Source: Gloeobacter kilaueensis JS1 (GTDB lineage Bacteria > Cyanobacteriota > Cyanobacteriia > Gloeobacterales > Gloeobacteraceae). From it: a stretch of DNA of 64,000 nt. Both the position numbers and the translations under genes were made by a program. This document shows, piece by piece, positions 8,399 to 12,799 of the stretch. The stretch's first letter is position 1. Each line of letters opens with the position of its first letter. The stretch lies in assembly GCF_000484535.1 (NCBI RefSeq), contig NC_022600.1, forward strand, positions 3,410,001 through 3,474,000, read 5' to 3'. A model generated the notes under the pieces. It made no database searches, was not told the DNA's origin, and was given only the letters and a program-made list of their open reading frames with translations.

Positions 8399-10030
8399 GT
8401 GCAGATTGCCCTGTTGCAACTGAACCTGACGGTGGGGGATCTGGTGGGCAATGCTGGCCGCATCGAGCAGGCCGCCCGCCAGGCGGCTGCTTGTGGGGCG
8501 GATCTGGCGGTCACCTCCGAACTCGCTCTCCTCGGGTATCCGCCCCGCGATTTGCTGTTGGACCCGGCTTTTGTTGCGAGAGCCGCCGGGGTGGGAGCGG
8601 ATCTGGCCCGCGCCCTGAGGGGTGTGCTGCCGGTGCTGGTGGGCACGGTGGTACCCAGCGACGGGGGCCGCCCCCTCGCCAACGCGGCAGTGCTGCTCGC
8701 CGGGGGCGAATGCCGGGTCGCAGCGCGCAAGGTGCTTTTACCGACCTACGATGTCTTCGACGAGGACCGCTACTTCGAGCCAGGTAAGACAGTCCAGCCT
8801 TTGGATCTCGCTCGCCAGTCCCTGGGCGTCCACATCTGCGAGGACGGCTGGAACGACCGCGAGTTCTGGCCGGTGCAGCGCTATCACCGCGATCCGGTGG
8901 AAGAACTCGTCACAGCCGGGGCCGGGTTGCTGATTAACCTTTCCGCCTCGCCCTACTACCGGGGGGTGCAATCGTTTCGTGAGCGCCTGCTGGGCCACAC
9001 CGCCCGCCGCCACCGCCTGCCGCTGCTCTACGTCAATCAGGTGGGCGGCAACGACGAACTGTTGTTCGACGGCTGTAGCTGTGCCTTTGGCCCCGACGGC
9101 GGACTCGTCGCCCGCGCCCGGAGCTTCGAGCCGGATCTGCTCGTAGTTGACACCGAAGCCCTCAGCGGTCACTGCTCGCCAGTGTTTGCGGGCGAAGCCG
9201 AGGTCTGGGAGGCGCTGGTGATGGGGACGGCGGATTACGTGCGCAAGTGCGGTTTTCGTCAGGCTCTCGTCGCCTTCTCCGGCGGCATCGATTCGGCCCT
9301 CACCCTGGCGGTGGCGAGCGCTGCCCTTGGACCTGCGAACGTGCTCGCTGTCCTGATGCCCTCGCCCTATTCGAGCCCCGGCAGCATCGACGACAGCCTC
9401 GCCCTTGCCGCCAACCTGGGCGTCGAAACGCTGAAGCTGCCCATCGCTCCGGCGATGGACGCCTTCGAGCAGATTCTTTCTCACAGCTTTGCCGGGTACA
9501 GCGCCGACATTACCGAGGAAAATCTCCAGGCGCGCATCCGGGGCACGCTGATGATGGCCCTCTCCAACAAGTTTGGCCGCCTCGTGCTCACCACCGGCAA
9601 CAAGTCGGAGACTGCCGTCGGCTACAACACGCTCTACGGCGACACCGCCGGGGCCCTGGCGGTGATTTCGGATCTGTACAAGGGCGAAGTGTATCGGCTC
9701 GCCCACTGGCTCAACCGCGACCGAGAGCTGATCCCCGCCAGCATTCTGACCAAGCCCCCCTCCGCCGAACTGCGCCCCGGCCAGCGCGACTCCGACAGCC
9801 TGCCCCCCTACGACGCACTCGACAGCATCCTGCGGCTTTTGATCGAGCAGAACCGCACCCCAGAGCAGATCGAAGCTGCCGGTCACGACCCGGCAACCGT
9901 CCGGCGGGTGCTCCAACTGGTCGATCGGGCCGAATTCAAGCGCCGCCAACTGCCTCCTGGCCTGAGAGTCAGCCCCCGCGCCTTCGGCATCGGCTGGCGG
10001 CAGCCCATCGCAGCCCATAAAGCGATCTGA
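8399..10030 (+). CDS. nadE: glutamine-dependent NAD+ synthetase
   Basis: Converts nicotinate adenine dinucleotide to NAD+, using ammonia from glutamine. The frame is open further upstream, but the protein fold starts at the GTG at 8399 (MQIALLQLNLTVGD), giving 543 residues. Residues 1-260 are the nitrilase-type glutaminase with its Glu-Lys-Cys triad (SELALLGYPPRD, KVLLPTYDVFDED, HICEDGWND). Residues 270-543 are the synthetase with the ATP motif SGGIDS. With nadM this is the second NAD-synthesis gene in the first 10 kb. Confidence 0.95.
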   Translation: MQIALLQLNLTVGDLVGNAGRIEQAARQAAACGADLAVTSELALLGYPPRDLLLDPAFVARAAGVGADLARALRGVLPVLVGTVVPSDGGRPLANAAVLLAGGECRVAARKVLLPTYDVFDEDRYFEPGKTVQPLDLARQSLGVHICEDGWNDREFWPVQRYHRDPVEELVTAGAGLLINLSASPYYRGVQSFRERLLGHTARRHRLPLLYVNQVGGNDELLFDGCSCAFGPDGGLVARARSFEPDLLVVDTEALSGHCSPVFAGEAEVWEALVMGTADYVRKCGFRQALVAFSGGIDSALTLAVASAALGPANVLAVLMPSPYSSPGSIDDSLALAANLGVETLKLPIAPAMDAFEQILSHSFAGYSADITEENLQARIRGTLMMALSNKFGRLVLTTGNKSETAVGYNTLYGDTAGALAVISDLYKGEVYRLAHWLNRDRELIPASILTKPPSAELRPGQRDSDSLPPYDALDSILRLLIEQNRTPEQIEAAGHDPATVRRVLQLVDRAEFKRRQLPPGLRVSPRAFGIGWRQPIAAHKAI

Positions 10031-10116
10031 CTTTTTTAAGAATCGAAGCGAACCGGTCGCTCTCCGCCCTCGAACGAGGCGCTATCCAGTGAGATCCGCC
10101 GGCTTTGAATGGCGCA

Positions 10117-10189
10117 TACCCCCAACCGGATTCGAACCGGTGTCGCCTCCGTGAAAGGGAGGTGTCCTGGGCCTCTAGACGATGGGGGC
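10117..10189 (-). tRNA. trnE: tRNA-Glu (anticodon UUC)
   Basis: The minus strand folds as a full cloverleaf of 73 bases. The acceptor stem pairs GCCCCCA with TGGGGGT (first pair G-U) and has discriminator A73. The D-loop region reads GTCTAGAGGCC. The anticodon loop CTTTCAC gives anticodon UUC, and the T-arm contains GGTTCGAATCC. CCA is not encoded. In cyanobacteria charged tRNA-Glu also feeds tetrapyrrole synthesis. Confidence 0.96.
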
Positions 10190-10223
10190 ACAGACACAGC
10201 TTCTTATTATGGATGTAAATCGA

Positions 10224-10377
10224 AGCGAGCGTCAATCTCGCTGCGGCGGCGCTCCGAGTGTACCCGCAGCAACCGCAGTGGAAACTTCATTCAGGCGCAA
10301 CCGTTGCTGCGGCCCTGCCACTCTACTCGAACGCCGCTTTGCCCGATCGTAAAAGAGGGTAGTGAAAGCTACCTCGG
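10224..10377 (+). ncRNA. candidate structured RNA or leader element
   Basis: This gene-free stretch contains nested inverted repeats: AGCGAG/CTCGCT (10224-10229, 10237-10242), GCGGCG/CGCCGC (10243-10248, 10332-10337), GAGTG/CACTC (10256-10260, 10319-10323), a perfect 10-bp pair CCGCAGCAAC/GTTGCTGCGG (10264-10273, 10303-10312), and GAGGGTAG/CTACCTC (10355-10362, 10369-10375). A terminator follows at once. I compared it by eye with the cobalamin, TPP and SRP/4.5S cores and found no match. It is either a small RNA or the leader of the TonB receptor gene. Confidence 0.45.
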
Positions 10378-10410
10378 CGGCCTGTACCCCCCTGCAGGCC
10401 GTCTTTTTTT
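10378..10410 (+). terminator. Rho-independent terminator before TonB receptor gene
   Basis: CGGCCTG (10378-10384) pairs with CAGGCCG (10395-10401), and seven T residues follow at 10404-10410. It ends about 76 bases before the receptor start. A TTGACA at 10414-10419 just after it could serve as a separate promoter, although no good -10 box was seen. It therefore either ends the structured RNA or acts as an attenuator. Confidence 0.75.
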
Positions 10411-10486
10411 GGTTTGACAGCCGGTCTTTTGACGAGTCATCCGTCCTGCCTGACAATGAGCGGCTGAGTTAGCCACCGGTAATCGC

Positions 10487-12499
10487 TTGAAAACTTCGAT
10501 CTGTCTTGCCCTGCTCATCCTGGGCCTGCCGACGCTTGCGGCGGCCCAGAGCGCGCCCACCCGCTCCGAACTGGTCCACCCGTCCCAGCGGGCAGCGGAC
10601 CTGCTATCCCAGGCAGAACCTGCGATCCCGGTTTTGACCCCCCAGGCGGAGACGCGCCAGCCCGCTCCCCCGGCGACGCCGGTCTACACCGTGCCCGCCG
10701 CCCAGATCGAAAAACAGGGAGCGCAGAGCCTGGCGGATGTGCTGCGGGGGCTGCCGGGCTTTGCGATCAACGATGTCGGGCCAGGGGCGGACATCCACAC
10801 CGGCACCTACTACCGGGGAGCTTCGATCAACCAATCGACCCTGCTCCTCAATGGCCGCCCCTTCGGCACCAACATCAACACCTACCACGGCACCACCGAC
10901 TTCAACGCCCTGCCGGTCGAGGCGATCGAAAAGGTCGAACTGACGAGCGGAGCCAGCTCGACTCTTTATGGCAGCGAGGGCTTTGGCGGCGTGCTCAACG
11001 TCGTCACCAAAAAAGGCCGGGGCCAGCCCCGGCTCAGCGCCAGCCTCGAATACGGTTCCTACGGCCAGAGCAACTACCGGGCCGCCTTCGCCGGGGCGGG
11101 CGATCAGTTCAGCTACACCGTCAACTACCAGAGCTTTTTGGCCGACAACCGCTACGGTGTTCCTTTTGAATCGGTCAATCGCGGCCCGGACGGGCGGCTC
11201 TTCAACGGCGACGCCTACCGCAACAGCTACGCCGCCAACTTCAGCTACGAACCCGACAGCCGCAACACCCTCTCCTTTGATCTCACCAAGATCGTCTCCC
11301 GCAAGGGCCTGCTGTACTTTGGCTTTCCCGGCAACTGCAACCCGGCTTTGCCCCTGCAGTGCGACCGCCTCGACCACGACGGCCTCAATACGGGCTTGAA
11401 CTGGCGCAGCCAGCTTGGAGGAGGGGAAGATTCGCTCTTGAGCGTCAGCCTGGGCTACAACCAGGACTACTTCAACACCTACGGCCCGAACCAGAACCAG
11501 TTCAGCCGCACCGGCAGCCTCGACTCGCAACTCATCAGCGCCCGCATCGAGCACGACTGGTACACCTCCCCCGGCCACCGCCTGCGCTATGGCTTCGACC
11601 TGCTCAACAACAGCCTCACCGGCACGATCTTGAGCACCAACCCGGCCCGCGCCGCCAACAACGGCGGCGAGAGCCACGCCGTCTTCAACGGTGCCTTCTT
11701 TGCCCTGAGCAGCTGGACCGTTGCGAAGCCCCTGCAGTTAGAACTGGGCGTGCGCCAGACGGTGAATAGCCTCTTTGGCAGCTACACCAACCCGAGCCTG
11801 GGCATCCGCTATGCACTGAGCCCGGATGTCGCCCTGCGGGCCAGTTGGGTGCTCGCCCAGCGCAATCCGGGCCTGGATCAGCTCTTCGTCTACGACACCG
11901 TTCACGGCTGGCTGCCCAACCCCAATCTGGTACCCGAGACCGGCTCCGCCTACACCGCCGGATTCGACGTGCGCTTCAGCGAGGCTCTGAGCGGCCAGTT
12001 CACCTACTTCGGCAGTGGCCTCGCCAACCGCCTCGCCGTCGGTTCCGACAATCGCTGGCAGAATATCGGCTCCGTCGCCACCAACGGCCTCGAACTCGCC
12101 CTGCGCTGGCAGATCGCCCCCGAGTGGTCGAGCTTTCTCAACTACACCTACACCGACGCCAAAATCCTCACCGGTTCCGACGCCGGACTGCAACTGGGCC
12201 TCGTCCCCTACTCGGTGGGCCAGGCGGGCGTGGGCTACGACCACGGCGGTTACCAGGCCAACCTCATCGCCACCTACGGCAGCGGCAGCCGCCGGGCCTT
12301 TTACACCCTGCCGGGGGTGAACAACACTGACTTTTCTTCGCCCTGGCTCTCCCTGGATCTACGCACCCGCATCCCGCTCACCCCGAATCTGGCCTTCACC
12401 GCCTACATCGAAAATCTGGCGGACGTGCCCTACGAGCGGGCCAACCGCATCTTCACCCCCGGCATTCTCTACCGAATTGGCGTGGAAACCAGTCTTTAG
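10487..12499 (+). CDS. TonB-dependent outer membrane receptor
   Basis: A 670-residue porin-like receptor for a scarce ligand such as a siderophore or cobalamin. The TTG start gives a good signal peptide (MKTSICLALLILGLPTLAAA). Residues about 70-185 are the plug domain (LADVLRGLPGF, then SGASSTLYGSEGFGGVLNVV). The rest is the 22-strand barrel, ending in a short YRIGVETSL strand without a terminal aromatic. Substrate not predictable. A structured leader and terminator lie upstream, and downstream its frame continues past the TAG into a 21-bp repeat array. Confidence 0.93.
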   Translation: MKTSICLALLILGLPTLAAAQSAPTRSELVHPSQRAADLLSQAEPAIPVLTPQAETRQPAPPATPVYTVPAAQIEKQGAQSLADVLRGLPGFAINDVGPGADIHTGTYYRGASINQSTLLLNGRPFGTNINTYHGTTDFNALPVEAIEKVELTSGASSTLYGSEGFGGVLNVVTKKGRGQPRLSASLEYGSYGQSNYRAAFAGAGDQFSYTVNYQSFLADNRYGVPFESVNRGPDGRLFNGDAYRNSYAANFSYEPDSRNTLSFDLTKIVSRKGLLYFGFPGNCNPALPLQCDRLDHDGLNTGLNWRSQLGGGEDSLLSVSLGYNQDYFNTYGPNQNQFSRTGSLDSQLISARIEHDWYTSPGHRLRYGFDLLNNSLTGTILSTNPARAANNGGESHAVFNGAFFALSSWTVAKPLQLELGVRQTVNSLFGSYTNPSLGIRYALSPDVALRASWVLAQRNPGLDQLFVYDTVHGWLPNPNLVPETGSAYTAGFDVRFSEALSGQFTYFGSGLANRLAVGSDNRWQNIGSVATNGLELALRWQIAPEWSSFLNYTYTDAKILTGSDAGLQLGLVPYSVGQAGVGYDHGGYQANLIATYGSGSRRAFYTLPGVNNTDFSSPWLSLDLRTRIPLTPNLAFTAYIENLADVPYERANRIFTPGILYRIGVETSL

Positions 12500-12526: not shown

Positions 12527-12799
12527 GTTCCAAACCGGAAGCTCGGGGTTCCGAACCTGAAGTTCGAGGTTCAAAACCCGGAACTTGAGGTTCGCAACCA
12601 GAAATTCGAGGTTCAAAACCTGGAACTTGAGGTTCTGAACCTGGAAGATGGGGTTCCGAACCCGAAGGATGAGGTCTGGAACCTGAAACTTGAGGTTCTG
12701 GACCAGAAAGATGAGGTTTTGAACCTGAAACTTGAGGTTCGGAACCCCGAGCTTGAAGTTCCGAACCTGAAAGACGAGGTTTTGAACCTGAAAGCCGAA
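12527..12799 (+). repeat. 13-unit 21-bp tandem repeat, heptad-coding, after the receptor stop
   Basis: Thirteen consecutive units of exactly 21 bases with no indels, consensus close to GTTCCGAACCTGAAACTTGAG cut at any phase. The frame is that of the TonB receptor: after its TAG at 12497-12499 it stays open for 114 codons to a TGA at 12842-12844. Each unit encodes V-x-N-L-x-x-E, which fits a coiled-coil heptad with V at a, L at d, and charges at e and g. There is no ATG or GTG in that frame. The opposite strand is also open (12453-12848), as expected for a 3n period. The units vary by substitution only, suggesting either selection on period or recent slippage. Confidence 0.85.

Follow-up and report, generated by a model that had tools for sequence, protein, structure and literature searches.

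In Synechocystis, the BlaI/CopY-family regulator PetR activates petJ and represses petE under copper scarcity, and in the presence of copper PetR is broken down by PetP, a membrane protease of the BlaR type (PMC7896320). According to a review, PetR/PetP involves no copper-homeostasis response (PMC10141476), and copper entry through the outer membrane has been attributed mainly to porin-like channels (PMC12292863). Among TonB-dependent transporters, IacT (all4026) of Anabaena sp. PCC 7120 affects copper uptake (PMC4284471), and what controls cyanobacterial TonB receptors in their response to copper starvation was, according to one paper, yet to be identified (PMC2771747).

We analyzed a locus in which a multi-hairpin region ending in a terminator precedes a gene encoding a TonB-dependent receptor. 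It lies in a window of 64 kb (the whole stretch of DNA that was analyzed) of a 4.72-Mb genome assembled as a single contig, designated G000 where it has to be told apart from other genomes. We consider it likely that a separate transcript ends at this terminator and that the receptor gene is initiated behind it, at a promoter controlled by PetR, for the import of copper or of a copper chelate. The RNA side of the locus is ordinary, as it consists of a terminator plus extra hairpins, and more interest attaches to the link between the receptor and copper.

Organization of the locus and fold of the hairpin region

Read on the + strand, the locus runs from a nadE-type gene through a tRNA-Glu gene on the opposite strand to the hairpins, the terminator and the receptor gene (Table 1). 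The initial annotation had described a perfect 10-bp pair, consecutive inverted repeats, a terminator and a gap of 76 bases to the receptor start, and all of these features were recovered. The + strand of 10224-10410 folds as three to four hairpins ending in the terminator, the perfect pair (10264-10273 with 10303-10312) being enclosed in the main hairpin, and the receptor starts at a TTG codon 76 bases past the T run. The terminator has a G+C-rich 11-bp stem and a 6-base loop followed by TTTTTTT, and it is the sole terminator-like site found on the + strand between nadE and the receptor. An apparent second copy of it at G000:3764386 was discarded, the T run being absent after that sequence.

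Table 1. Coordinates of the features of the locus within the window.
Feature	Position	Strand	Basis
nadE-type gene (NAD synthetase and amidohydrolase domain)	8402..10030	+	ORF; name by sequence reading alone
tRNA-Glu (TTC)	10116..10190	-	ARAGORN; Rfam RF00005, 59.6 bits
tRNA-Glu promoter (TTGACG, 18 nt, CATAAT)	10206..10235	-	promoter match
Hairpin 1 (AGCGAG/CTCGCT)	10224..10242	+	fold
Main long hairpin with internal bulges	10243..10337	+	fold; encloses perfect 10-bp pair
Weak helix	10338..10354	+	fold
7-bp hairpin, GGGTAGTGAAAGCTACCT	10356..10373	+	fold
Strong intrinsic terminator (hairpin 10376-10403, 7 T at 10404-10410)	10376..10410	+	terminator search
Putative PetR box, TTGACAGCCGGTCTTTTGAC	10414..10433	+	motif comparison; terminal TTGAC doubles as -35
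Receptor promoter (TTGACG, 17 nt, GACAAT)	10429..10457	+	promoter match; aligned with GAGCAT/AAGCAT of relatives
TonB-dependent receptor, plug and barrel, CirA/BtuB-like	10487..12499	+	ORF, Pfam

Compared with dinucleotide shuffles, the + strand gave z = -3.84 with the terminator and z = -2.5 without it (10243-10375), and the - strand gave z = -0.9 for both stretches. Because 3.1% of 962 windows of 133 nt within these 64 kb reach z -2.5 (0.5% reach -3.8), the hairpins 5' of the terminator are only modestly unusual; the terminator itself is strong. The strongest fold scores of the window are found directly past the receptor stop (12527-12794), in a tandem array of 21-nt units with a 63-nt higher period that sits inside a repeat-rich ORF of 131 aa on the - strand.

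We also looked for relatives of the hairpin region among known RNA classes and in other genomes. Searched against Rfam even at E 10, the region returned the tRNA-Glu only; no known RNA class applies, in agreement with the earlier statement that no known riboswitch core was found, and the models of 6S and cobalamin RNAs, which had been suggested for comparison, do not match here. The 6S model (RF00013) has no match in the window, and the 6S RNA of this genome was found at G000:403156 (65.2 bits). An ORF spanning the hairpin region (10109-10417) had no match in a Pfam search. The covariance model of the main hairpin (R1) matches this locus alone among 390 cyanobacterial genomes, and no homologue of the hairpin RNA was found by blastn in relatives, by covariance model in sets of 59 and 390 genomes, or in plasmids and phages. 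The covariation search that had been proposed was run as a model search of 390 genomes, and because it found no relative of the hairpin, there were no sequences in which compensatory changes could be counted.

The neighbourhood of tRNA-Glu and receptor is kept in G001, G002 and G003, with an HD-domain gene in place of the hairpins (in G001, L079:2080-2712). A remnant of such a gene was looked for, and neither a trace of it in the window nor a close homologue in the G000 genome was found. An 18-nt match in the same three genomes (query 46-63) lies elsewhere in them, apparently in coding sequence, and was also set aside. The nadE orthologues of related genomes are located away from the receptor locus. 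Hairpin 1 overlaps the tRNA-Glu promoter of the opposite strand at its -35 box, and in G001-G003 this promoter is kept and the hairpin is absent.

A probable receptor promoter behind the terminator

The putative PetR box starts 3 bases past the T run, and the receptor orthologues of G001, G002, G003 and G005 carry the same element at a similar distance before the gene, with the hairpins absent. The -35 region of the predicted receptor promoter would overlap the PetR site, and its -10 (GACAAT) is weak. Among 175 unique box sites, 40 have a -10-like TANNNT at a spacing of 17-19 nt from the final TTGAC, an enrichment given that the other spacings account for 0 to 9 each. Judged from the sequence, transcription of the receptor gene very probably starts past the terminator, at a promoter of its own that carries the conserved site of a copper regulator; transcription may also reach the gene from farther upstream.

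TonB receptors of this kind are often under riboswitch control, and the initial annotation had proposed a novel leader switch. The leader of the receptor gene would then act as a riboswitch or attenuator, with read-through at 10376-10410 under ligand control, a reading that suits the orientation and position of the hairpins before a TonB receptor as well as the strength of the terminator. However, the conserved receptor promoter and operator lie 3' of the terminator, the orthologues keep the operator without a hairpin leader, and the Rfam search even at E 10 reveals neither a cobalamin nor any other switch. Moreover, each hairpin pairs within itself in the predicted fold, and a non-systematic look noticed no competing anti-terminator pairing. 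Because the conserved promoter of the receptor begins after the RNA ends, we do not regard the hairpins as a riboswitch leader of this gene: the predicted promoter and the conserved box intervene between the two, and ligand-controlled read-through is very improbable.

The hairpins and the terminator (10224-10410) would instead lie at the 3' end of another transcript, distinct from the receptor mRNA, and the terminator would insulate the next promoter, that of the receptor. This insulation is not a conserved need, as the other genomes of the same genus have no terminator at the corresponding place. Two candidates for the transcript can be considered. Read-through from nadE, running antisense over tRNA-Glu, could be stopped at 10376-10410; alternatively, a short RNA could start divergently at the tRNA-Glu promoter, which is near-symmetric (its -10 region reads TATTAT on the + strand, 10205-10210), and end at 10410. 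Bidirectional promoters of such a kind have been described in other bacteria (PMC10268837).

The initial annotation had also suggested an independent small RNA, here a lineage-specific gene of ~190 nt starting near 10217, ending at 10410 and acting in trans or antisense. Its structure and terminator are compatible with this suggestion, since folding in excess of shuffled sequence is confined to the + strand, consecutive hairpins followed by a strong terminator are the usual layout of small RNAs, and TATTAT would suit a start ~6 nt before hairpin 1. Other observations speak against it. Beyond the lone TATTAT at 10205, no sigma-70-type promoter for the hairpin RNA was matched on the + strand, a -35 match being absent, and the TATTAT is accounted for by the conserved -10 of the tRNA-Glu promoter on the opposite strand. 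In addition, z is just -2.5 without the terminator, a level that 3% of the windows here reach, and there is no homologue in the 390 genomes, plasmids or phages. We keep a dedicated small RNA gene as a reasonable though less likely alternative, and prefer the 3' end of a separate transcript followed by the receptor's own promoter.

The box, PetR and copper

If up to one mismatch is allowed, the box (consensus TGACrGnCnGTCTTTTGAC) is present in 167 of 390 cyanobacterial genomes, compared with a handful of matches for the reversed pattern, and further instances precede petJ, sodC and petR. Of 110 sites that we read, 32 are followed by a petJ-type cytochrome gene, 10 by a TonB receptor and 7 by a SafE-type gene, and a petR homologue adjoins the box at 12. 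The petR genes of G001-G003 have a perfect palindrome upstream, which is GTTTGACAGCCTGTCAAAC in G001 and G003, and petR of G000 shares the core GACAGCCGGTC with the receptor box. This petR (2040710-2041123; Pfam Penicillinase_R; 66% identity to the G005 copy) is directly followed by a petP-like ORF, for which the M48/M56 match was obtained with the G005 copy.

As petJ and petR carry the box, and the genome encodes petR together with a petP-like gene, we named it the PetR box; both features make the receptor gene a candidate member of the PetR regulon, with PetR binding predicted. PetR, the BlaI-type protein that regulates petJ in response to copper, very probably has its operator in this box. 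The box could also be the operator of another BlaI-type or metal regulator, in which case the promoter would stand and the copper link would fall: the pairing of box and PetR is a prediction, and relatives encode several BlaI-type paralogues. Against this, petJ and petR themselves have the box, several genomes have it adjacent to petR, and G000 has one petR-type gene only at E 1e-8, making another regulator improbable. Text searches of the literature, which did not reach the original PetR paper, returned no paper with the box motif.

Association of the box with the receptor was then counted within 600 nt upstream, allowing at most 3 mismatches. The box precedes 22 of 31 receptor orthologues (~50% identity or more), a set that includes the five loci from which it was drawn and gives 17 of 26 as the independent count. 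For the other receptors of the Gloeobacter group the count is 1 of 24, and for reversed-pattern controls it is 0 of 55. Nine of the 31 orthologues have no box at this threshold, some of them showing 4-6 mismatches. The single boxed non-orthologue receptor is adjoined by petR, and so is another receptor whose box has four mismatches.

The receptor itself has the plug (PF07715) and barrel (PF00593) domains, both above cut-off. It fits none of the curated substrate families; the vitamin B12 receptor BtuB (TIGR01779) was rejected at 128 bits against a cut-off of 599.7. By sequence, the closest solved receptors are the colicin I receptor and BtuB. The protein is probably an importer of copper or of a copper chelate, a substrate that we infer from the regulator alone. 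If petJ is taken as the model, PetR should switch the receptor gene on under copper scarcity; the gene would be controlled at initiation, and its product would then import copper or a copper chelate.

Several other genes carry the box. A second TonB receptor of G000 has a PetR-type box upstream with one mismatch (G000:2972168-2972187, L093), and the Cu/Zn superoxide dismutase (sodC) genes of Gloeobacter-type genomes are boxed (G000:3558581, L099; L094; L100), and in G003 sodC shares its box region with a petJ-type gene that runs divergently from it. Downstream of the box, many cyanobacteria, a Synechocystis among them, encode small proteins that contain GLTT-type repeats and, in several cases, His/Met-rich tails (L144, L204, L207, L210, L213, L215); these may be the uncharacterized members of the known PetR regulon. 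Boxes also occur upstream of MbnP-like (L192:1544) and PepSY-like (L140:1832) proteins, named by reading their sequence and both in keeping with copper handling, and near-perfect ones are found at DJ-1/PfpI-type genes, also identified by reading, in G003 and G001 (L089, L090).

We give roughly even chances to the proposal that, across cyanobacteria, the PetR/PetP regulon has a dedicated outer-membrane receptor for copper or a copper chelate among its conserved members. If true, PetR would be more than a plastocyanin/cytochrome switch: it would act as a regulator of copper scarcity that promotes copper import as well. The conserved PetR-type box on one receptor group offers a direct and testable candidate both for the regulator of the receptor and for outer-membrane copper entry.

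Comparison with described systems

The terminator resembles any ordinary intrinsic terminator in stem, loop and its seven T, except that two or three additional hairpins stand in front of it here. With the 6S RNA of cyanobacteria, the region shares a length of ~190 nt and a long bulged hairpin, whereas it has no 6S match and the 6S gene of the genome lies elsewhere. Cobalamin riboswitch leaders of btuB-type receptors are likewise placed upstream of a TonB receptor and have a terminator at their end, but here the cobalamin core is missing and the promoter of the receptor lies behind the terminator.

On the protein side, the likeness to IacT of Anabaena is that of a cyanobacterial TonB receptor with a copper link, and no orthology is claimed. 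The closest parallel is the PetR/PetP switch of Synechocystis sp. PCC 6803, with petR beside a petP-like gene and the same box at the petJ genes and at petR. The PetR regulon known in Synechocystis comprises four proteins and no receptor (PMC7896320), whereas in this genome and in many cyanobacteria a TonB receptor is boxed, and in Gloeobacter-type genomes sodC as well.
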